Assembly: GCA_903842575.1 (NCBI GenBank)
Contig: CAIMMM010000144.1
Coordinates: 1 to 64,000, forward strand
Direction of reading: 5' to 3'
DNA: 64,000 bases
Source: an uncultured Bacteroidota bacterium
GTDB lineage: Bacteria; Bacteroidota; Bacteroidia; Flavobacteriales; Flavobacteriaceae
In this document: positions 51,575 to 62,657 of the stretch, in pieces
Layout of the letters: each line of letters begins with the position of its first letter
How positions within the stretch are numbered: the stretch's first letter is position 1
Made by a program: the position numbers and the translations under genes
Notes under the pieces: generated by a model
The model's database searches: none
Seen by the model: only the letters and a program-made list of their open reading frames with translations
What the model was told of the DNA's origin: nothing

Positions 51575-52639
51575 ATGGAATCACCAAAAAAGAACATACT
51601 CGTTGCGCCATTAAATTGGGGTTTAGGCCATGCCACCCGTTGTATTCCTATTGTTAGAGAGCTTGAAAAAAATGGATATTTTCCTATTTTGGCTTCCGAT
51701 GGAGTGGCATTAAAAATGCTTCAAAAAGAATTTCCTCATTTGTTAACCTTGGAATTGCCTTCCTATAATATTGAATACGCTAAGAAAGGAGAAGACTTTA
51801 AATGGAAATTGATAAAAAATAGCCCCAAAATGATTGAGGCAATTTTTCAAGAAAAGAAAATGGTGAAGCAGTGGGTAATCGATTTTAAACTACATGGCAT
51901 TATTTCGGATAATCGATTGGGTGTGTACAGCAAAAAAGTTCCAAGTGTTTTTATTACCCATCAATTGAATGTTTTGTCGGGGAAAACTACTTGGATTTCA
52001 AGTAAACTACACCAACATTTTATCAAAAAATATACTGAGTGTTGGGTTCCCGATTTCATAGAAATACCTAATTTGACTGGTAAATTGGGCCACTTGAAGA
52101 ACACTAATTTAAACCTCAACTATATTGGTCCCTTAAGCCGATTGGAAAAAAAAGAATTGCCAATAAAATATGATTTGATGGTGCTGCTTTCTGGTCCAGA
52201 ACCACAACGAACTTTATTGGAACAAAAATTAAAAAACGATGTGAAACTCTTTCAAGGAAAGGTCGTTTTTATAAAAGGCATTCTGGAAGAAAAACAAAAA
52301 ATGGAGCAATTTGAAAATTGTACTTATTACAATTTCATGACTTCTGCGGAACTTGAACAGACGTTTAATGAAAGTGAAAAGATATTGTGCCGCTCGGGAT
52401 ATACAACGGTTATGGATTTAGCAAAACTCCATAAAAAAGCGTTTTTTATTCCAACTCCAGGACAATTTGAACAAGAATATTTAGCCAAAAAATATAGAAA
52501 AGATGGATTAGTCCCATTTGCAAATCAAGATGATTTTAAAATTGAAAATCTTTATGAAATTCCATTATATAAAGGATTACCACAAAGTAAAAATGAAATA
52601 GATTGGAAGCAATTATTCTTGCTTTTCAAGAGTGAATGA
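51575..52639 (+). CDS. MurG/GT28-like glycosyltransferase
   Basis: 354 residues; a GT-B glycosyltransferase. The N-terminal block ILVAPLNWGLGHATRCIPIVREL has the GxGH glycine loop, and the C-terminal CRSGYTTVMDLAKLHKKAFFIPTPGQFEQEYLAKK is the nucleotide-sugar site typical of the GT28 / UDP-glycosyltransferase group (RxGYxT, PTPGQxEQ). The substrate is unknown; not peptidoglycan MurG itself. It is divergent from trmB and its 3' end overlaps the convergent kinase gene by 27 bases. Confidence 0.82.
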   Translation: MESPKKNILVAPLNWGLGHATRCIPIVRELEKNGYFPILASDGVALKMLQKEFPHLLTLELPSYNIEYAKKGEDFKWKLIKNSPKMIEAIFQEKKMVKQWVIDFKLHGIISDNRLGVYSKKVPSVFITHQLNVLSGKTTWISSKLHQHFIKKYTECWVPDFIEIPNLTGKLGHLKNTNLNLNYIGPLSRLEKKELPIKYDLMVLLSGPEPQRTLLEQKLKNDVKLFQGKVVFIKGILEEKQKMEQFENCTYYNFMTSAELEQTFNESEKILCRSGYTTVMDLAKLHKKAFFIPTPGQFEQEYLAKKYRKDGLVPFANQDDFKIENLYEIPLYKGLPQSKNEIDWKQLFLLFKSE

Positions 52640-53656
52640 AAATTCGGAACCTTTTCCAAATTCACTTTCAATATAAATTTTTTCTTGGTGGGCTTCTATG
52701 ATATGCTTTACAATAGAAAGCCCAAGTCCGGAACCTCCTTCACTTCGAGCGCCACTTTTGTCTACTCGAAAAAAGCGTTCAAACAATCGGGGGATATTGT
52801 GCTTTTCAATTCCTTCTCCATTATCTCGAATGCGAACAATGATTTTATTCTTGACTAAATCCTCAATGGTAACTTCAGTAGTTCCATTTTCTTTTCCATA
52901 TTTGATGGAATTCATGATTAAATTGGTCAATATTTGTTGGATTTTTTCTTTGTCAGCAAAAACCTTTATGGGTTTAGTATATTTCCTATCGAACATTAGA
53001 ATAATATTTTTTTTATCGGCTTTCATTTCGAGCAAATCAAAAACATTTTGAATTAAATCAACAATGTCAAAATTTGAAAAATCAAGATTTAAATCACCGA
53101 TTTCAAGCTTGGTTATCATATCTAAATCTTCCACGATATAAATCAATCTTTCCACACCTTTTTCAGCTCTTTCAAGGTATTTTTTTCTAATTTTTTTATC
53201 ATCCATAGCCCCATCCAAGAGAGTAGAAAGGTAACCTTGAACAGTAAATAAGGGTGTTTTTAATTCGTGTGAAACATTACCAAGAAATTCTCGACGGTAT
53301 TCTTCCCGTACCTTAAGTGTTTCTATTTCTAATTTTTTGTCAGTAGCAAATTTCTTAACCTCTTTAGTCAAAGTCGCCATGTCTGTAGTAATAGGCTGGC
53401 TTCTAAAAGAACTAGACTCTAAAAGCGAGACGTCGTCATATATTTTTTTTACACCTCTATAAATGAATCGTTCAACACGATACTGTATAACAAAAAAAGA
53501 AAAAATATAAATTGAAGTTGCAAAAGTTAAACAGAAAAACAATGATAATTGTCTAAAAAAGTATAGGTATATTACCAAAAACCCTAGAGAATACAAGGTA
53601 ATATATAATGCGGAAATCGATGCAAAACCGTATGTTTTTTTATAGTTTATTGACAT
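52613..53656 (-). CDS. membrane sensor histidine kinase, PhoR-like
   Basis: 347 residues. Two N-terminal transmembrane helices (about 12-58) with a very short periplasmic loop, then HisKA with phospho-acceptor His130 (GNVSHELKTPL) and the HATPase domain: N-box NLIMNSIKYGKENG, G1 DNGEGI, F-box RLFERFFRVD and G2 GGSGLGLSIV. No PAS domain is seen. Lacking a large sensor domain, it probably senses through membrane partners, as PhoR does. It begins immediately after the response regulator stop (TAAATG). The tail overlaps the convergent glycosyltransferase by 27 bases. Confidence 0.92.
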   Translation of the reverse strand: MSINYKKTYGFASISALYITLYSLGFLVIYLYFFRQLSLFFCLTFATSIYIFSFFVIQYRVERFIYRGVKKIYDDVSLLESSSFRSQPITTDMATLTKEVKKFATDKKLEIETLKVREEYRREFLGNVSHELKTPLFTVQGYLSTLLDGAMDDKKIRKKYLERAEKGVERLIYIVEDLDMITKLEIGDLNLDFSNFDIVDLIQNVFDLLEMKADKKNIILMFDRKYTKPIKVFADKEKIQQILTNLIMNSIKYGKENGTTEVTIEDLVKNKIIVRIRDNGEGIEKHNIPRLFERFFRVDKSGARSEGGSGLGLSIVKHIIEAHQEKIYIESEFGKGSEFSFTLEKQE

Positions 53657-54340
53657 TTACACTTCAATCTTATAACCAATTCCTTTAATGGTTTTGAATA
53701 AATCATCTCCTATTTTTTCACGAAGTTTTCTAATGTGAACATCAATGGTTCTTCCCCCTACAACAACTTCATTCCCCCAAACTTTATCCAGAATTTCTTC
53801 TCTTTTAAATACTTTACCCGGTTTTGAAGCCAGTAAATAGAACAATTCAAATTCTTTTCGTGGGAGACGAATTTCTACTCCATCTTTCACAATTTTATAT
53901 TCTTCCCGATTGATTTCTATTCCCGACACATTGAGTGTTTCGGAATTTTGCTCTTCTGATTTTAATCGTCGTAACAATGCTTTTACTTTACTAACCAATA
54001 ATTTTGGTTTGATGGGCTTTGTAATGTAATCATCGGCGCCAGCATCAAACCCAGCAACTTGAGAGTAGTCTTCACTTCTTGCTGTTAAAAAAGTAATAAT
54101 AACATTGCTCAACTCTGGTATTTTTCTAATATTTTCACAAGCTTCCATGCCATCCATTTCAGGCATCATGACATCCATAATTATTAGTTGTGGCAATTCT
54201 TTTTTAGCTTTAATAATGGCTTCTTTTCCATTAGAAGCAGTAACAATTTGATAGCCTTCTTGGGAGAGATTGTACCCTACTATTTCTAGAACATCTTGCT
54301 CATCATCGACCAATAAAATTTTTATGTTTTTTTTTTTCAT
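53657..54340 (-). CDS. OmpR/PhoB-family response regulator
   Basis: 227 residues; start moved to ATG 54340 (MKKKNIKILLVDDEQ), 16 codons inside the longest frame, to fit the family. The receiver domain has Asp12/Asp13, phospho-acceptor Asp56 (IIMDVMMP) and the Thr/Lys switch, and the winged-helix DNA-binding domain ends with GGRTIDVHIRKLREKIGDDLFKTIKGIGYKIEV. Coupled to the PhoR-like kinase downstream. It is divergent from the TonB-dependent receptor, whose promoter region it shares, so it may control that gene. An A11 tract follows the start codon. Confidence 0.93.
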   Translation of the reverse strand: MKKKNIKILLVDDEQDVLEIVGYNLSQEGYQIVTASNGKEAIIKAKKELPQLIIMDVMMPEMDGMEACENIRKIPELSNVIITFLTARSEDYSQVAGFDAGADDYITKPIKPKLLVSKVKALLRRLKSEEQNSETLNVSGIEINREEYKIVKDGVEIRLPRKEFELFYLLASKPGKVFKREEILDKVWGNEVVVGGRTIDVHIRKLREKIGDDLFKTIKGIGYKIEV

Positions 54341-54402
54341 GTGGGACACTATTAGGTGTTTCGGGATGTAAAGGTAAAGATAATACAAAACGAAACCACT
54401 TC

Positions 54403-54467
54403 TTAACTATTATTTAATGTGTTAACCATTTGATAAAGATTTATGTACCAAATGCTAATGTACAAAT
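54403..54467. promoter_or_regulatory. candidate operator repeats between response regulator and receptor
   Basis: TTAACTAT (54403) and TTAACCAT (54422) are 19 bases apart, and TGTACCAAAT (54444) and TGTACAAAT (54459) are 15 apart. They lie upstream of the receptor promoter in the divergent gap of 181 bases. Whether the response regulator binds them is inference. Confidence 0.4.
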
Positions 54468-54471
54468 AACC

Positions 54472-54499
54472 TTGACTTTACAAAGCGGTGGTTTCTTTG
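54472..54499 (+). promoter_or_regulatory. promoter of the TonB-dependent receptor
   Basis: TTG (54472-54474), 17-base spacer, TTTCTTTG (54492-54499), one mismatch to TAnnTTTG, 22 bases before the ATG. Confidence 0.55.
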
Positions 54500-54521
54500 C
54501 AATAAATTAACACAACGCTTT

Positions 54522-57272
54522 ATGAGATTTAAATTATCGTTACTTGTATTATTAATAAGCACATTAGGTTTTTCCCAAAACAAAGGGACTATAACAGGTT
54601 TATTAAGTGACAAAGAATCAAATAATCAACCTTTACCCTTTGCTAATGCAGTAATAAAAGGAACAACAATTGGAACAGCAACGGATGAAACTGGAAAATA
54701 TACTTTTACTGTTGCGCCTGGGGTGTATATAATTCAATTTAGTTTTATAGGTTATGAAAATGTAGAAGAAAAAGTTACTGTTGTAGCTGGAGAAACAATT
54801 ACTATTAATAAAACATTAGGATCAGGAGGTTACCAATTAAAAGACGTTGTGGTTCAAAGTAATGGAAACAGAGAAAAAGAAACGGCATTATTGTCAGAAC
54901 AAAAAAAAGCAGTTGAAATAAAACAAAGTATTGGGGCACAAGAAATGTCAAGAAAAGGGATTAGTGATGTAGCTACTGCCATTACAAAAACAACTGGAAT
55001 CACTAAACAAGAAGGTTCTGGAAATATTTTTGTTAGAGGATTAGGCGACAGATACAATTCGACAACCATGAATGGATTACCAATTCCATCGCAAGATCCT
55101 GAAAAGAAAAATTTAAATTTAGAAATATTCTCTACCGATATTGTAGAGTCTGTTTCAATTGATAAAGTATATAGCAGTAAATTATTCGGTGATTTTGCTG
55201 GAGGAAATATTGATATTATTTCTAAAGATTATAAAGGAAAAGGATTTTTAAAGCTAGATATTGGTTCAAAAGTCAATACCAATGCACTTGCTGAAGATAA
55301 TTTTAAATTACAAAAAGGATACAACAGTTTTGGATTTGGAACTGCTACAATTCCGAGTGAGCCTTTAACTTCTTATGGATTTAATACCTTACAATTAGAG
55401 AGTCAAAATCCTATTGCAGGTTCATTTGGTATTTCTGGAGGGAAATCATTTGAAATAGGGGAAAAAGGGAAATTAAGTCTTTTTGGAACCGCAAGCTATA
55501 GCAATGAATACGAGTCCATTACTGATGGCAGTATAAAAAGTGTTAATGGAGCTGGCGTGATTGCAAAAGACTTTGAGGAATATACTAGAATGAGCTATAA
55601 TACTAATTTTACGGCAATGGTAAATGCAGCCTATAAAATTAATGCGAATAACAAAATTAATTTTAACACCGTTTTTATTAATACTTCTTCACTTTCCAAA
55701 AGAGATTATACAGGTTATTTTGTAGACGGAGCTGAAGACAATAATGGTTTCATCCGAAGAAATAAATATGAAAAAAATGCCCTTTGGATTAATCAATTAT
55801 TAGGTGATCATAAGTTAACAGAACGCTCAAAATTCAATTGGGGAATATCTTATAACACCATTACCGGAGACCAACCAGATAGAACACAAAATGTTTTTAA
55901 TAAATATCCGCAAGGCTACATTCTTTTATCACAATCGGCAGCAAACAACCATAGATATTTCCAAAAATTGGAAGAGAATGAATTGGCTGCCAATCTTTCT
56001 GTAGATTATAAATTTAGAAAAACTGCTGATGGTGATTACAAAGGTAAATTCACTTTAGGATATTCTGCGAGAATAAAACATAGGGATTTTGAGGCAACCC
56101 AATTTAATTTCAAATCAAACAATGATCACTTAGCAGATGTTGTTGATATCAACAACTTAGACTTGTTTTTCAATCAGCAAAATTATGCTAATGGTTTCTT
56201 CGAAATTTCAACATTCCGCGGCGCTAGTTCTGCCCCAAATGCAACAAAACCACAATATTACAAAGGTGATTTGTTTGTTAACGGGGGCTATTTAAATACC
56301 GAATATAAATTTAACAGCAAATTGACTGCCTTCTTAGGTTTAAGAACCGAATATTTATTGCAAAAAACAAAATGGAACACTTCATTAGCTCCATCAGGTG
56401 ATAAAGCAAAATTGGATAAAATTGCTTTTTTACCAAGCTTAACAATGAAGTATGAATTGAACGAAAAACAAAATCTTCGATTTGGGTTTAGTAAAACGTA
56501 CACATTTCCTCAGTTTAAAGAAAGTGTGCCGTTTATTTATGAAGAAGTAGATGAAACAAAATTTGGTAATCCAGATTTGTATGAGTCTGACGACTACAAT
56601 TTGGATCTTAAATGGGAAATGTTCCCGAAAAGTGAAGAATTAATTTCGTTTACTGCTTTTGGAAAATACATTCAAAATCCAATCAACGAAGTAACTATTG
56701 TTTCTTCAACCAATGATGTTTCGTTCATAAATACAGGAGATTATGGATATGTTGCTGGAGCCGAAGCCGAATACAGAAAATTACTTTTCAATTATGGTGA
56801 AATCAATGCAAACAAACTTTCTGCGGGTATAAATTTTTCTTATTTATACAGCAATCAAGAACTGAGTTCTACTAAGGTAATCAAGGAAACCGATTTTAAT
56901 GTGGCGTTTACCGATAAAGAAAGCCGGTTAACTGGAGCCTCTGATTTATTATTAAATGCTGATATTTCATTCTTAAAAGAGTGGAATAATAAAGAAAGTA
57001 ACCTGAACTCCACTTTGGCATTTACCCAATTTTCAGACAGGGTATATTCTCTCGGAACTAACGGAAGGGGAAATCAAATTGACAAAGCATTTGGTTCTTT
57101 AGATTTCATAACTAAAGTAAAATTAAGTAAGCGTTTAGGATTTGGATTTGTCGCAAAAAATATTTTAAACCCTGCTATTGAAAGAGTTCAGGAAAACAGC
57201 AATGGTGATGTAACCGTTCTATCATACAAAAAAGGAATAACTGCAAGTTTAGGAATCAACTATCAATTCTAA
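54522..57272 (+). CDS. TonB-dependent outer-membrane receptor
   Basis: 916 residues. Signal peptide (MRFKLSLLVLLISTLGFS), then a carboxypeptidase-like regulatory domain (about 22-105, GTITGLLSDKESNNQPLPFANAVIKG), a plug domain (about 140-225, with NIFVRGLGDRYNSTTMNGLPIPSQDP and GDFAGGNIDIISKD) and a 22-stranded barrel ending IGINYQF-like with a terminal Phe. Substrate is unknown. Its divergent neighbour is a PhoB-like regulator and the next gene downstream is a beta-helix lipoprotein, suggesting a two-component-controlled uptake unit. A SusD partner is absent. Confidence 0.93.
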   Translation: MRFKLSLLVLLISTLGFSQNKGTITGLLSDKESNNQPLPFANAVIKGTTIGTATDETGKYTFTVAPGVYIIQFSFIGYENVEEKVTVVAGETITINKTLGSGGYQLKDVVVQSNGNREKETALLSEQKKAVEIKQSIGAQEMSRKGISDVATAITKTTGITKQEGSGNIFVRGLGDRYNSTTMNGLPIPSQDPEKKNLNLEIFSTDIVESVSIDKVYSSKLFGDFAGGNIDIISKDYKGKGFLKLDIGSKVNTNALAEDNFKLQKGYNSFGFGTATIPSEPLTSYGFNTLQLESQNPIAGSFGISGGKSFEIGEKGKLSLFGTASYSNEYESITDGSIKSVNGAGVIAKDFEEYTRMSYNTNFTAMVNAAYKINANNKINFNTVFINTSSLSKRDYTGYFVDGAEDNNGFIRRNKYEKNALWINQLLGDHKLTERSKFNWGISYNTITGDQPDRTQNVFNKYPQGYILLSQSAANNHRYFQKLEENELAANLSVDYKFRKTADGDYKGKFTLGYSARIKHRDFEATQFNFKSNNDHLADVVDINNLDLFFNQQNYANGFFEISTFRGASSAPNATKPQYYKGDLFVNGGYLNTEYKFNSKLTAFLGLRTEYLLQKTKWNTSLAPSGDKAKLDKIAFLPSLTMKYELNEKQNLRFGFSKTYTFPQFKESVPFIYEEVDETKFGNPDLYESDDYNLDLKWEMFPKSEELISFTAFGKYIQNPINEVTIVSSTNDVSFINTGDYGYVAGAEAEYRKLLFNYGEINANKLSAGINFSYLYSNQELSSTKVIKETDFNVAFTDKESRLTGASDLLLNADISFLKEWNNKESNLNSTLAFTQFSDRVYSLGTNGRGNQIDKAFGSLDFITKVKLSKRLGFGFVAKNILNPAIERVQENSNGDVTVLSYKKGITASLGINYQF

Positions 57273-57291
57273 AATACATTAAAATCATATT

Positions 57292-57324
57292 AAAAAAGAG
57301 CAATTATTACAATTGCTCTTTTTT
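57292..57324 (+). terminator. terminator of the TonB-dependent receptor
   Basis: AAAGAGCAATT/AATTGCTCTTT stem with a 5-base loop and T-run, 20 bases after the receptor stop. Confidence 0.8.
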
Positions 57325-57338
57325 ATTTCCCTTTTTCC

Positions 57339-57355
57339 TTAACATTAGTAACATT
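57339..57355 (+). promoter_or_regulatory. TTAACATT/GTAACATT direct repeat upstream of the lipoprotein
   Basis: Two 8-base near-copies spaced 9 bases apart (TTAACATTA, GTAACATTC), about 120 bases before the ATG at 57475. The second is identical to part of the repeat at 59118-59128. Regulator binding is conjecture. Confidence 0.3.
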
Positions 57356-57474
57356 CTAGTAATCTTAAATTAGAGTTTTAATAAACTAACAATCATGTTT
57401 GCTTAACGTTCAAAATAATAATATGAACCAAATTTGTACCAACAAAATAACTATAAATTTTATTTAAAAAAAAA

Positions 57475-58647
57475 ATGAAAAAATCAATCGTAAAATTATT
57501 TGGCCTTTTAACTATCATTGGTAGTTTATTTACAAGTTGTTCGTCTTCGGATAGTGGTCCATCGTCAACATTTGTTGTAGATGCAAACAATTTTCAAGGA
57601 ACTATTAACGATGGTGAAGTTGTACTTAATGCAAGCACCGTTTACACATTAACTGGAGCAATTAAAATTGCAGACGGAGCAACTTTAACTATTCCTGCAG
57701 GAACAGTAATTGAAGCATCTGGCGGAACTTCTTCCTATATAGCTGTAGAGCAAGGAGGAAAAATATATGTAAATGGTACTGCTTCAAATCCTGTAATTAT
57801 GACAAGTGCTAATACTGTAAAAACCCCTGGAGATTGGGGTGGATTAGTAATTTGTGGAAGAGCACCAATCAATGATGTTTCTGGTGGGACATCAACAGCA
57901 CAATCGGAAGTTGCCGATTTGACTTATGGTGGAATAATTGCTAATGATAATTCGGGTTCTATTAGATATTTAAGAATTGAATATACAGGTGCTAATTTTA
58001 GCGCAGTAAAAGAATTTAACGGGGTTTCTCTTTTTGGAGTTGGATCAGGAACTACATTCGAATATGTTCAGTGTTATCATGGTGCTGATGATGGTTTTGA
58101 ATTTTTTGGAGGAACTGTGAATACTTCAAACTTGGTTTCTTTTGGAAATGAAGATGACCAATTTGACTGGACTGAAGGTTGGAATGGAACCAATACAAAT
58201 TGGTATGGAAAAGAAGCTTTTGGCAAAGGAAACAGAGGAATAGAAGCAGATAATTATGAGCTTGGCTTCGCAAATACTCCAATTGCAAATCCTTCAATTA
58301 CAAACTTAACTTTGGTTGGTCCTGGAAGCACAGCAGATGCTGTTGTATATGCTGAAAATGACGGACTTAAATTAAGAAGAGGAACTAGAGGAATTTTTTC
58401 AAATGTTCACTTAAGTGGATGGAAAGTTGGTTTTAATGTTGAACATGACGAAACAATTGCAGGAGTTGGAACAGCTCTAAAAGCTACAAACGTTACTTAT
58501 GTTGATGTTGCAACAAACACAAAAGGCAAAAACACAGCTGGCATTGCCACTGATGTTACTGCTGTAGCTACAGCAGGTACTGCGACCGGAGCTGGAAATG
58601 GCGCTGCTGCTCCAACATGGACAACTGGCTGGACATTAGGATTATAA
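57475..58647 (+). CDS. lipoprotein with parallel beta-helix-like domain
   Basis: 390 residues. Lipobox Thr-Ser-Cys (SLFTSC, Cys about 22). The body is a series of short strands with Gly/Asn/Val/Ile text: GAIKIADGATLTIPAGTVIEA, GGKIYVNGTASNPVIMTSANT, WGGLVICGRAPIN, as in right-handed beta-helix proteins of Bacteroidota. It is a probable outer-membrane, surface-exposed lipoprotein associated with the TonB receptor upstream. Automatic annotation sometimes calls homologues multidrug transporters; nothing here supports that. Function unknown; a substrate-binding or scaffold role is inferred. Confidence 0.72.
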   Translation: MKKSIVKLFGLLTIIGSLFTSCSSSDSGPSSTFVVDANNFQGTINDGEVVLNASTVYTLTGAIKIADGATLTIPAGTVIEASGGTSSYIAVEQGGKIYVNGTASNPVIMTSANTVKTPGDWGGLVICGRAPINDVSGGTSTAQSEVADLTYGGIIANDNSGSIRYLRIEYTGANFSAVKEFNGVSLFGVGSGTTFEYVQCYHGADDGFEFFGGTVNTSNLVSFGNEDDQFDWTEGWNGTNTNWYGKEAFGKGNRGIEADNYELGFANTPIANPSITNLTLVGPGSTADAVVYAENDGLKLRRGTRGIFSNVHLSGWKVGFNVEHDETIAGVGTALKATNVTYVDVATNTKGKNTAGIATDVTAVATAGTATGAGNGAAAPTWTTGWTLGL

Positions 58648-58717: not shown

Positions 58718-59041
58718 CTAATTCTTAACAGCAACGGCATATTGATTGTTTGAAAAATCAACTTCTCTTACAGCAACATTGTCTGCAAAATAAATCCATT
58801 TTCCTGATTTAACACCATTTGAATATTCTGCAATAGAAGTTAATGAACCATTGACATCATAAGCCATCCATTTACCTTCTAATTTACCTTCTTTAAAATA
58901 TCCTACTTGCTGAATCGTACCATTATCATAATGGTAAGTTGCTTTAACCAATTGTCCTTCCGCTTCAAGAGTAGGTTTTTCATTTTGACCAAATCCAAAT
59001 CCAGTCATCAATATAGCTATTAATACAATAATATTTTTCAT
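58718..59041 (-). CDS. secreted YwqK/MORN-repeat-like protein
   Basis: 107 residues with a signal peptide (IAILMTGFGFGQ). Repeated units such as YHYDNGTIQQVGYFKEGKLEGKW and NGSLTSIAEYSNGVKSGKW match YwqK/MORN-type repeats, which form small beta-hairpin platforms; homologues are variously annotated as YwqK antitoxin-like or MORN proteins. Nothing nearby is a toxin, so I give no antitoxin role. It is convergent with the beta-helix lipoprotein, and its promoter region carries a TTAACAATT/GTAACATT pair 11 bases apart. Confidence 0.78.
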   Translation of the reverse strand: MKNIIVLIAILMTGFGFGQNEKPTLEAEGQLVKATYHYDNGTIQQVGYFKEGKLEGKWMAYDVNGSLTSIAEYSNGVKSGKWIYFADNVAVREVDFSNNQYAVAVKN

Positions 59042-59071
59042 AATTTGGGAGTTTTAATTATTATTACAGAA

Positions 59072-59079
59072 CAAATATA
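59072..59079 (-). promoter_or_regulatory. -7 element of the YwqK-like gene
   Basis: TATATTTG 30 bases before the ATG, but no TTG at the 17-20 base distance. A TTAACAATT/GTAACATT pair (59110-59128, 11-base spacing) sits 30-49 bases upstream, so the promoter could need an activator. Confidence 0.5.
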
Positions 59080-59274
59080 TGTATAAATTTACAATAAAAA
59101 AACTTTTTGTTAACAATTTAGTAACATTAACGTTTTTTAACACTTTGCTTTCATGCAAATATTTTTAAACTTAAAACTAAATTATGCTTTATTTTATACC
59201 AACTTGGTGTTAAATATTTTAAATTTGGTATAGTAATTGAAAACTTTTTGTAATTTTACAAAATCCAAATCTGA

Positions 59275-59613
59275 ATGATGGCTAAAAATTACTTTTATAT
59301 TGCACTTTTATTGTTTTCTTTTATTTCTTTCGGTAGCAATGCACAAGAAAACAAAACACAACCTAAAACACAAGACACTTCTATTGATGGCTTGAGTTTT
59401 TATCCTAATCCTGTGAGTAATGGCAAAATTTACATTACTTCAAAATCTTCCCTAGATAAAGAAATTGCCATTTTTGATGTGCTTGGTAAAAAAGTGCTAC
59501 AAACCCTTATAAATTCAAAAGAATTAAACATTGGCACAATTCCTCCTGGAGTTTATATCATCAAAATTCGCGAAGGCGAAGCTACCGCTACTAGAAAACT
59601 TATAGTCAGATAG
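59275..59613 (+). CDS. minimal T9SS type A protein (signal peptide plus sorting domain)
   Basis: 112 residues (or 111 from the second ATG). After a signal peptide (about 1-24, FISFGSNAQ) only 15 linker residues precede the T9SS type A sorting domain (FYPNPVSNGKIYITSKSSLDKEIAIF, ending RKLIVR). There is no cargo domain. It is closely similar to the C-terminus of the protein at 59718. It might saturate or test the sorting machinery, act as a decoy, or be a remnant; none is shown. The gene is intact with no frameshift. Confidence 0.8.
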   Translation: MMAKNYFYIALLLFSFISFGSNAQENKTQPKTQDTSIDGLSFYPNPVSNGKIYITSKSSLDKEIAIFDVLGKKVLQTLINSKELNIGTIPPGVYIIKIREGEATATRKLIVR

Positions 59614-59717: not shown

Positions 59718-61595
59718 ATGAAAAAACTTTACTCTTTATTATTACTAGCTGTAACCACAGTATCTTTTGGACAAATTTTCTCCGATAATTTAAACTACAC
59801 TGACGCTGCTTTATTAACTGATAATGGTTGGACTGCACATAGTGGCGGAACTACAAACCCAATTGATGTAGGCGCTTCTAATGGATTAACGTATACTGGA
59901 TATTCTGGGCTAACAGGTTATGAAGCAGCTGTTGAAGGGAATGCTGCGCTACTTGACCAGAATGGTCAAGATGTTAATAAAACTTTCCTAACTCCCGTTA
60001 CATCTGGAACTTTATACTATTCATTTCTAGTAAATGTTACTTCTGGCGATGCTGGTTATTTTACACATATAGGTACTTCAACAAATTTTGCTGCTAGAAT
60101 CTTTGTAAAACCTTCAACAACTTCTGGAAAGATTAATTTTGGAATTTCTAATACTGGCACGGCTTCTTTTGCTGCAGTTCCAACGGATTATGATTTAAAC
60201 ACAACCTACTTAATAATAGTGAAGTATGATGTTTCTACTACTGGTGCTGCTAGTATTTGGGTTAGATCAACAGGTATTCCGGCAACTGAAACTACCGCTG
60301 GGACACCAGAGCACACAACTTCAGGTTCAGGACAAGCTTCAATTAACGCTGTTTATTTACGTCAATACGTTGCAACACAAAACATTACTATTGATGGATT
60401 ATTGGTTTATGCAACATGGTTTGGAACAACTCCATGTTCATTAACATTAGGCAATGGAACTACAGCATGTAATGCTATAACTCCAGCAATTGATACTTAT
60501 AATGTGACTTTTGCCTATACTGGTGGAAATACCGGATCATACACTTTAGCTACTAACGCAGGTACAATAGGCGGAAACAATCCATCAACTACAGCTGCTG
60601 GAGATATTACAATATCTAACATTCCAGAAGGAACGAACGTAACTTTAACAGTTACTGGTGCTTGTTCTTTTTCAAAACTAGTAACAGCTCCTGAGTGTAA
60701 ACCTGTGAATGCATTGCCTTATAGTGAAGGCTTTCCTTATACAGTTGGTAACTCATTAGGATTAGAGCAAAAATGGACTAACGTAAATACTGGCGACAAT
60801 GTTGTAGTTAGTGCTGGTAGTTTAACTTATGCAGGCGTTACCTCAACAGGAGATTCAGTAACTTTTAATGGAGCTGGGATTGACTGTTTTACACCTTTTA
60901 CTGCAACTACAGCAGGTACGATTTATGCGGCATTTTTATTTAATGTAACTGAGTTACAAGGTGTAACTGATGGTAATTCTACTTATTTTGCAACTCTTAC
61001 CGATGATTTAAAAGGATTCAAGGGTAGATTATTTTTGAAAAGAACAGGGCCGACGTTCCAAATTGGTTTGGATGTTGCTTCAACAACAACAAATTTAGAT
61101 GGTAATCTAATAAATATTGGGGAAACGGTATACATCGTTATGGGGTATGACTTCACCTCTAATTTATTAGATGTTTGGATAAATCCTACTAATGGAGCAG
61201 CTCCAACTTTAGGGTTAGTTCCAGTAACGCCTTTTGCTAATTTAGGCGGATTTTTATTAAGACAAGATGCTGCTAACACAACGCCAACTATTGTTTTTGA
61301 CGAGTTGAGAGTAGTAACTTCTTTAGCTGATTTAGGATTGAATCTTAGTACAAAATCGAACACGATTACAGGACTTAATGTATATCCAAATCCTGTTACA
61401 AATGGCAAACTATATATTACTTCGGATAGCGGCGCTGATAAAACAGTAGTTATTTATGATATTCTAGGAAAACAAGTAATCAATACTACTGTAATGAATG
61501 ACGTAGTAAATGTTAGCGGATTAAACGCTGGTGTTTACATCGTTAAAATTACAGAAGCCGGAAATACAGCTACAAGAAAATTAATTATTAGATAA
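59718..61595 (+). CDS. T9SS type A sorted secreted protein
   Basis: 625 residues. Signal peptide (LLLAVTTVSFG), then two similar beta-sandwich domains (about 20-240 and 335-545): the first contains FSDNLNYTDAALLTDNGWTAHSGG, the second LPYSEGFPYTVGNSLGLEQKW, each followed by a YYSFLVNVTSGDAG / IYAAFLFNVTELQG segment. A Cys-rich linker lies between (about 240-330). The T9SS type A domain (about 545-625, VYPNPVTNGK, ending RKLIIR) directs it to the surface. Laminin-G/jelly-roll-like folds are plausible, so it may bind glycans; not shown. Confidence 0.88.
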   Translation: MKKLYSLLLLAVTTVSFGQIFSDNLNYTDAALLTDNGWTAHSGGTTNPIDVGASNGLTYTGYSGLTGYEAAVEGNAALLDQNGQDVNKTFLTPVTSGTLYYSFLVNVTSGDAGYFTHIGTSTNFAARIFVKPSTTSGKINFGISNTGTASFAAVPTDYDLNTTYLIIVKYDVSTTGAASIWVRSTGIPATETTAGTPEHTTSGSGQASINAVYLRQYVATQNITIDGLLVYATWFGTTPCSLTLGNGTTACNAITPAIDTYNVTFAYTGGNTGSYTLATNAGTIGGNNPSTTAAGDITISNIPEGTNVTLTVTGACSFSKLVTAPECKPVNALPYSEGFPYTVGNSLGLEQKWTNVNTGDNVVVSAGSLTYAGVTSTGDSVTFNGAGIDCFTPFTATTAGTIYAAFLFNVTELQGVTDGNSTYFATLTDDLKGFKGRLFLKRTGPTFQIGLDVASTTTNLDGNLINIGETVYIVMGYDFTSNLLDVWINPTNGAAPTLGLVPVTPFANLGGFLLRQDAANTTPTIVFDELRVVTSLADLGLNLSTKSNTITGLNVYPNPVTNGKLYITSDSGADKTVVIYDILGKQVINTTVMNDVVNVSGLNAGVYIVKITEAGNTATRKLIIR

Positions 61596-61676: not shown

Positions 61677-62657
61677 TTGATTACTTCCCAGGACATATTC
61701 ACAATTTCTAGCCAAAAGCAATTTGAAAAAATAGCCTTGAAAGTTTTTCGTTATCAGCATGAAAACAATCTTGTTTATCAAGCGTTTTGTGATTTTTTGA
61801 AAGTGGAAAAAGGAAGTGTAAAATCTTTGGAGCAGATTCCTTTTTTACCCATACAGTTTTTCAAATCGCATGATGTTGTTTCTAACAACAACCCTATTCA
61901 AGAAACATTTGTTAGTAGCGGAACAACGGGAATGATAACTAGCAAACATTTAATTACCGATGTTTCGATTTATGCTGAAAGTTATAAAAAAGGCTTTTCC
62001 GAATTCTATGGCAACATAGAAGATTACGCCATTTTGGCTTTATTGCCTTCCTATTTAGAAAGGGAAGGTTCATCTTTGATTTATATGGTCAAAGATTTAA
62101 TTGCGCTTTCCAATAATCCAAATAGCGATTTTTATTTGAATGATTATGATGCATTAATTGAGAAACTTATTGCTTTAGACAACTCTGGACAAAATGTGCT
62201 TTTAATTGGAGTTACCTATGCATTATTGGTTTTAATCGAACAAAAACAGTTTAAATTGAAAAACACCATTATAATGGAAACTGGTGGCATGAAAGGAAAA
62301 CGTAAAGAAATCATACGCGAAGAATTACACGAAATACTTTGTAAAGGCTTTGGAGTTTCGAGCATTCATTCCGAATATGGCATGACCGAATTGTTATCAC
62401 AAGCGTATTCATTAGGCCATGGAATTTTTGAATGTCCCAATTGGATGAACATTCTTATTCGAGATACCGAAGACGCTATGTCTTATGTTACCTCTGGGAA
62501 AACTGGCGGTATGAATGTCATTGATTTGGCCAATATCAATTCGTGTTCCTTTATTGCCACACAGGATTTGGGCAAAAAATATCCTAACAATTCGTTTGAA
62601 GTATTGGGACGTTTTGATAATTCGGATATTCGCGGTTGTAATTTGATGGTGATATAA
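61677..62657 (+). CDS. LuxE-like acyl-protein synthetase / ANL-related acyltransferase
   Basis: 326 residues. The ANL-type phosphate loop appears as FVSSGTTGMITSKH (about 78-91) and the downstream motif as SEYGMTELLSQAY (about 235-247). This short form is the LuxE-type acyl-protein synthetase family, which activates a fatty acid as acyl-adenylate. Such genes occur in Bacteroidota near surface-polysaccharide or T9SS loci. The start is TTG 61677 (no earlier ATG). The substrate is unknown. Neighbours: T9SS gene upstream, an unknown secreted protein downstream. Confidence 0.75.
   Translation: MITSQDIFTISSQKQFEKIALKVFRYQHENNLVYQAFCDFLKVEKGSVKSLEQIPFLPIQFFKSHDVVSNNNPIQETFVSSGTTGMITSKHLITDVSIYAESYKKGFSEFYGNIEDYAILALLPSYLEREGSSLIYMVKDLIALSNNPNSDFYLNDYDALIEKLIALDNSGQNVLLIGVTYALLVLIEQKQFKLKNTIIMETGGMKGKRKEIIREELHEILCKGFGVSSIHSEYGMTELLSQAYSLGHGIFECPNWMNILIRDTEDAMSYVTSGKTGGMNVIDLANINSCSFIATQDLGKKYPNNSFEVLGRFDNSDIRGCNLMVI

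Follow-up and report, generated by a model that had tools for sequence, protein, structure and literature searches.

A PhoBR-linked TonB-dependent receptor and beta-helix lipoprotein in a relative of Flavobacterium: a probable phosphate-starvation outer-membrane unit and counterpart of PUSIV

Two published systems frame the locus described here, in which a PhoB/PhoR-like pair stands beside a TonB-dependent receptor (TBDT) and a beta-helix lipoprotein, within a stretch of 64,000 nucleotides from an uncultured Bacteroidota bacterium (the window: positions 1 to 64,000 of contig CAIMMM010000144.1, assembly GCA_903842575.1). The first is the cluster of F. johnsoniae called the 'PhoBR operon' or PUSIV, which comprises the glycosyltransferase Fjoh_0541, OprP (Fjoh_0542), PhoR (Fjoh_0543), PhoB (Fjoh_0544), a TBDT (Fjoh_0545), the lipoprotein FII (Fjoh_0546) and, further on, the lipoprotein Fjoh_0549, as given in the available text of PMC8115612. 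Taking the fold-change column of the table in that paper as log2, the values under low phosphate are 5.4 for Fjoh_0541, −1.3 for Fjoh_0542 and 0.76 for Fjoh_0543 (these two not significant), 3.1 for PhoB, 8.0 for the TBDT and 9.9 for FII. The same source modelled FI, FII and FIII on a polygalacturonase and related them to ElpS of Caulobacter (31–36% identity over 50–54%). ElpS (CC0170), the second system, is a lipoprotein that Caulobacter crescentus makes on phosphate starvation; its gene adjoins that of the TBDT CC0171, and homologues of elpS and cc0171 were noted to occur together as early as 2010 (PMC2996285).

By synteny, the genes in the window correspond to the F. johnsoniae cluster, which is already published; what is new here is a sharper regulatory prediction and further cases of the receptor–lipoprotein pairing. 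We put at about 0.62 the probability that these genes form a phosphate-starvation outer-membrane unit, in which PhoB drives a TBDT and a surface beta-helix lipoprotein that together import a phosphorus-containing ligand. This is supported by the published low-phosphate induction, a footprint in the gap between regulator and receptor genes, a box before the lipoprotein gene, the conserved pair, the neighbours of the pair on the Alteromonas plasmid pBGP9, the precedent of ElpS and the acidic residues that follow the lipoprotein's first cysteine. The first-pass annotation had proposed an uptake unit that responds to a nutrient, with phosphate as a candidate, and the strong induction of the F. johnsoniae counterpart supports both; the phosphate-limitation part of its refuting test had, for that counterpart, already been run in print (PMC8115612). 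It was wrong, on the other hand, in holding that the lipoprotein lacks a characterised homologue, as FI, FII, FIII and ElpS are described relatives (PMC8115612, PMC2996285). The genes are as follows.

51575..52639, + strand: glycosyltransferase (Glyco_tran_28_C), by position and Pfam family the counterpart of Fjoh_0541
52613..53656, − strand: PhoR-like histidine kinase (HisKA and HATPase_c; no further Pfam domain listed), counterpart of Fjoh_0543
53657..54343 or 54340, − strand: PhoB-like response regulator (Response_reg and Trans_reg_C), counterpart of Fjoh_0544
54522..57272, + strand: TBDT of 916 residues (CarboxypepD_reg-like domain, Plug and TonB_dep_Rec barrel), counterpart of Fjoh_0545
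57475..58647, + strand: lipoprotein of 390 residues (Cys22), surface-lipoprotein candidate, counterpart of FII (Fjoh_0546)

Orthology to the Fjoh genes is based on gene order, domains and relatives. Domain and open reading frame checks bear out the earlier coordinates and gene types for kinase, regulator, receptor and lipoprotein. The genome that carries the window is 2.67 Mb in size, and its nearest named relatives are Flavobacterium. The glycosyltransferase gene is convergent with phoR and overlaps its 3′ end by 27 bases, while the gap between phoB and the TBDT gene measures 178 or 181 bases, set by the choice of the regulator's ATG. The regulator is the top match to the PhoB model in its own genome (215.6–216.2 bits), with the runner-up about 60 bits lower at 155.8. 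The sole NCBIfam match of the receptor is TIGR01782, at 121.8 bits and under the cut-off of 310, and in a sequence search against solved structures its match to 9gbc is confined to the N-terminal part. The description of this receptor as 'SusD-less' holds, in that the three SusD_RagB matches of the genome each lie on a contig other than the receptor's and the lipoprotein has no Pfam match.

The arrangement is widely kept. Within the genus, 188 of 199 genomes have a relative of the lipoprotein (E 1e-10), although the weaker matches may be of FI or FIII type and not FII; across the order, 77 of 148 do (E 1e-20). The genome that carries the window has a single copy. Neighbourhoods were compared in the best 80 of 100 relatives found, which are hence close ones, and 58 of these loci were classed as Flavobacterium-type from their record titles and relatedness (L031–L085, L088, L092 and L093). 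A TBDT gene stands immediately 5′ of the lipoprotein gene in 79 of the 80, the exception being L108, which begins just before the lipoprotein. Within the Flavobacterium-type set, TBDT is followed by lipoprotein in 58/58, with phoB divergent in 57/58 and phoR present in 57/58; the one locus in which no divergent phoB was seen, L049, is cut by a contig end. This bears out the earlier claim that regulator and receptor diverge from one gap, and the retention of both the divergence and the gene order argues that the arrangement is not due to chance. The other 22 loci keep the TBDT in 21 cases and phoBR in 10. By eye, one Chryseobacterium locus (L104) appears to have two tandem lipoprotein genes. 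The first-pass annotation had suggested that the lipoprotein may be the surface partner in place of SusD; the conserved pairing favours a role as partner of the receptor, but the predicted fold does not resemble that of SusD.

The regulatory prediction concerns the phoB/TBDT gap and the sequence ahead of the lipoprotein gene, where the following elements were recognised.

54368..54376, − strand: TAnnTTTAC, putative −7 element of the phoBR promoter, conserved in the gap alignment
54403..54481, no strand assigned: putative PhoB operator array, with conserved TAA-type half-sites spaced by 11 bases or a multiple
54420-54437: core PhoB-like box TGTTAACCATTTGATAAA, within the putative array
54492..54500, + strand: TTnCTTTGC, just before the receptor gene and conserved in the gap alignment, putative −7 element of the TBDT promoter
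57295..57321, + strand: terminator-like hairpin with a T-rich run after it, in the interval from the TBDT gene to the lipoprotein gene (called by a simple script, no shuffle control)
57346..57363, + strand: second PhoB-like box TAGTAACATTCTAGTAAT, 5′ of the lipoprotein gene, at a position conserved in relatives (13.7 bits)

The two −7 elements are called on what we take to be the Bacteroidota promoter form. PhoB sites are marked by tandem 11-bp repeats. In the 58 aligned Flavobacterium-type gaps, half-sites TAAC/TAAT are conserved at 54423, 54434, 54456 and 54467, together with TTAC at 54478. The gap profile is most similar to itself when shifted by 11 bases (0.485 versus a permutation mean of 0.187 for the best lag of 8–13), a value reached by 0 of 2000 column permutations of the 58 sequences, though permutation ignores their relatedness. 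This conserved footprint and its period are as expected of tandem PhoB sites, and, as a pattern kept across relatives, the direct repeats lie ahead of the predicted target promoter, as in members of a PhoB regulon. In B. fragilis, PhoB shifts a pstC promoter fragment (PMC3547664). For Flavobacterium, no PhoB site appeared in the titles and abstracts of the literature searched, and the term 'Pho box' is absent from the available text of PMC8115612.

The lipoprotein gene may well have its own promoter, because both the terminator-like hairpin and a separate PhoB-like box intervene between it and the TBDT gene. The earlier statement that the lipoprotein follows the receptor thus holds for gene order but may well not extend to transcription. 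A weight matrix was built from 57 relatives, with six shuffled windows as the control. Upstream regions of the lipoprotein genes outscore shuffles (median 6.1 versus −0.2 bits; at least 14 bits in 6/79 versus 1/237). In 44 of 54 Flavobacterium-type rows (59 less five with fewer than 150 nt or ambiguous letters), versus 78 of 1080 shuffles, the best box lies on the sense strand and 115–140 bases 5′ of the ATG. Terminator-like hairpins occur in 49 of 70 TBDT–lipoprotein stretches, again without shuffle control. We do not claim a PhoB-like box before the glycosyltransferase gene of the window: scores there have a median of 6.2 versus 0.4 in shuffles, and none of 43 attains 14 bits. In F. johnsoniae-like species, AGTTAATAATTTAGTAAT recurs before this gene (11.8 bits).

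The lipoprotein is confidently predicted to be a beta-helix, as the first-pass annotation had proposed, and a right-handed one. The AlphaFold2 model, made with 40 relatives, has a mean pLDDT (predicted local distance difference test) of 91.2, with residues 1–26 below 50, and its top VIA-align matches, all of low identity, are AlgG (Z 23.2, root-mean-square deviation 2.7, 259 residues aligned), AlgE modules and phage tailspikes; this does not speak against families outside the VIA-align list. No match was found by Foldseek at E 0.001, the sequences of solved structures gave chance-level hits alone, and neither a Pfam family nor, at E up to 10, an enzyme family was found. Invariant residues cluster in DDGxEfFGG and NEDDxFDWTxGWxG...NRGxEADN, and the mature protein has an acidic pI of 4.4, features that would suit metal-assisted ligand binding or catalysis. 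In this phylum, acidic residues after the lipidated cysteine are a surface-export signal; at least two acidic residues fall within the eight positions after the first Cys in 69 of 79 lipoproteins.

In the mechanism that we infer, which spans PhoB binding, surface exposure, physical pairing, ligand and transport, phosphate scarcity would lead the kinase to activate the PhoB-like regulator. The regulator would then bind tandem direct repeats of 11 bp, both at the lipoprotein promoter and within the 181-base gap, raising the TBDT and lipoprotein strongly and itself modestly. On the cell surface, the beta-helix, with its invariant acidic and perhaps metal-binding residues, would capture or process a phosphorus-containing ligand and deliver it to the TBDT for import driven by TonB energy. 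The predicted operator and the conserved pair make both regulator binding to the 11-bp repeats and a receptor–lipoprotein complex directly testable.

Several observations weigh against this account. First of all, both sensor and regulator fall below curated NCBIfam cut-offs: the regulator misses the PhoB cut-off of 296.2 bits and, at 208.8 bits, that of the Bacteroidales PhoB model (270), while the kinase scores 239.7 versus 400 bits for PnpS and 232.2 versus 334.2 bits for PhoR. Second, taken singly, the sites in the window score close to what chance allows. The gap site scores 18.0 bits, barely above the best hits of the six shuffled windows (10.9–17.7), a range within which the lipoprotein site at 13.7 bits falls; an intragenic site at 62382 scores higher than the latter (14.7 bits), and for a second matrix (54456-54472) the window's own copy is not among the best 14 matches. 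The case therefore rests on conservation. A genome-wide search with KTAACAWTTNNNTAAY was not enriched (8 matches versus 5 for the reversed control), but this negative is weak because the pattern misses the window's own gap and lipoprotein sites; a regulon list from its matches was dropped, given these counts and neighbours that were unremarkable by eye. Third, all 11 Sphingobacterium loci hold the pair and 0/11 have a phoBR match in the locus. Fourth, colony expansion in F. johnsoniae is reported, as data not shown, to be unaltered when Fjoh_0546 is absent (PMC7807042). Finally, in Caulobacter CC0171 is reported to be constitutive, ElpS is still produced when CC0171 is deleted, and internal phosphate showed no change, again all as data not shown, according to the available text of PMC2996285.

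The pairing extends beyond the Bacteroidota. A tblastn search of plasmid records matched 21, of which 12 were inspected (seven from Pseudomonadota and five from Bacteroidota). A TBDT homologue adjoins the lipoprotein homologue in 11 of these 12 loci, six of them in Pseudomonadota, although it is recognised over only part of its length in L128 and L130; the exception is Marinobacter pHL2708Z5, which has the lipoprotein and no adjoining TBDT match. On Alteromonas pBGP9, genes for phoR, a phosphate-binding protein and a 2OG oxygenase lie upstream of the pair, while in Sphingomonas and Indioceanicola plasmids the pair lies upstream of type II secretion genes, as reported for Caulobacter. The beta-helix region is present in two or three copies in the partner proteins of Pseudoalteromonas (L119), Alteromonas and Indioceanicola. 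Such multi-copy relatives (L119, L120 and L121) adjoin the receptor, and ExbB/ExbD-type genes are near in L119 and L121.

These comparisons bear on what the lipoprotein does. It could act in the manner of ElpS, being exposed or released and boosting a secreted phosphatase, with the TBDT importing something else or only aiding display. Overproduction of ElpS raised extracellular phosphatase activity, ElpS itself showing none (PMC2996285), and hypothetical lipoproteins of this group are abundant exoproteins under low phosphate (PMC8115612). However, deletion of elpS left phosphatase activity unaltered (PMC2996285), and the recurrence of the pair in two phyla, with one TBDT family, points to a shared function; we consider this reading unlikely. 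Less probable still is an enzymatic role, in which the lipoprotein, as a lyase, hydrolase or epimerase, would break open polymers of plants or algae and so free bound phosphorus for import by the TBDT. Alginate epimerases, polygalacturonases and pectate and alginate lyases are among the fold matches, plant cell-wall targets have been proposed (PMC8115612), and two acidic clusters are invariant; yet the 50 VIA-align beta-helix matches listed span enzymes, phage tailspikes and adhesins at 6–16% identity, which says little on activity, and the lipoprotein has no Pfam enzyme family. That the unit serves a different nutrient, with an indirect phosphate link, is very improbable: phoBR is not beside the pair in the Sphingobacterium loci and type II secretion genes stand there instead in the two alphaproteobacterial plasmids, but the F. 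johnsoniae low-phosphate loci of unknown function are repressed under nitrogen and iron limitation (PMC8115612), and one record from another phylum (pBGP9) has phosphate genes in the vicinity of the pair.

The import predicted for the pair invites a broader proposal, which we offer tentatively and regard as rather doubtful. ElpS/FII-type beta-helix lipoproteins and their TBDT family might constitute a second, SusD-unlike type of surface-capped TonB transporter for phosphorus compounds, common to Bacteroidota and Pseudomonadota (in the second phylum sometimes with two or three beta-helix domains in tandem) and working in Flavobacterium with a 112-residue stand-alone sorting domain of the type IX secretion system (T9SS). 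The unit bears on how Bacteroidota without a Pst system acquire scarce phosphorus. The genome of the window has one PitA, and a weak PhoB-like box (12.4 bits) precedes its DUF47-pitA pair (L134, position 3862). Its only PstS-type (PBP) match adjoins genes that by eye resemble ExbB/ExbD/TonB; no pst transporter gene was recognised within 12 kb around this match, and pstA, pstB and pstC were not searched genome-wide.

Downstream of the lipoprotein gene lie three further features.

58718-59125, − strand: MORN_2 gene, directly after the lipoprotein gene
59108..59125, + strand: top-scoring PhoB-like box of the window (22.6 bits), between the MORN_2 gene (−) and the small T9SS gene (+)
59275..59613, + strand: protein of 112 residues with signal peptide and T9SS type A sorting domain, likely counterpart of Fjoh_0547

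Fjoh_0547 is a 112-residue protein of the C-terminal-domain type whose secretion persists in mutants of sprA and of porV (PMC7712824). A match to the small T9SS protein lies 3′ of the lipoprotein gene in 56 of the 58 Flavobacterium-type loci, that in L092 being to the sorting domain only and 1.7 kb off. Common control of the small T9SS gene with the lipoprotein gene is not supported, because relatives as a group lack the box (median −1.6 versus −1.9 bits in shuffles; 14 bits reached in 2/54, the window and L085) and a terminator-like hairpin precedes the gene in 49 of 54 stretches, although not in that of the window, which starts after the MORN_2 gene. The MORN_2 gene is the likelier target of the box at 59108; the same is seen in L031 (23.7 bits), the only other Flavobacterium-type locus with MORN_2 after the lipoprotein. 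In a Parabacteroides plasmid record (L125), too, the lipoprotein gene is followed by a gene of MORN type (YwqK). Further on, 59718-61595 encodes a T9SS cargo protein of 625 residues; its sorting domain, perhaps a local copy, shares 51% identity with that of the 112-residue protein.

Set against known systems, the locus compares as follows. First of all, it resembles the SusC/SusD pairs of polysaccharide utilization loci and PusCD1/PusCD2 of F. johnsoniae in having a TBDT with a carboxypeptidase-like N-terminal domain beside a lipoprotein; the lipoprotein is, on the other hand, a beta-helix without a SusD match, no SusD_RagB lipoprotein stands beside the receptor, and the receptor's one NCBIfam match is TIGR01782. 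Second, the lipoprotein model shares the fold of polygalacturonases and pectate lyases, but the protein matches no such Pfam family at E up to 10. Third, like ElpS/CC0171, it is the counterpart of a phosphate-starvation lipoprotein beside a TBDT, a neighbourhood seen in nearly all the genome and plasmid loci above; the Caulobacter pair, however, lies beside type II secretion genes rather than phoBR and ElpS is released in a type II-dependent manner (PMC2996285), and alphaproteobacterial relatives with such a neighbourhood were found among the plasmid loci. Finally, PUSIV differs from the window in having oprP between the glycosyltransferase gene and phoR, where the relative L044 also has it, and the window in having MORN_2 after the lipoprotein gene; yet glycosyltransferase, phoR, phoB, TBDT and FII-type lipoprotein stand in identical order, with phoR–phoB divergent from the TBDT gene and the lipoprotein gene following, and the small T9SS protein is also present downstream in relatives of the window locus.

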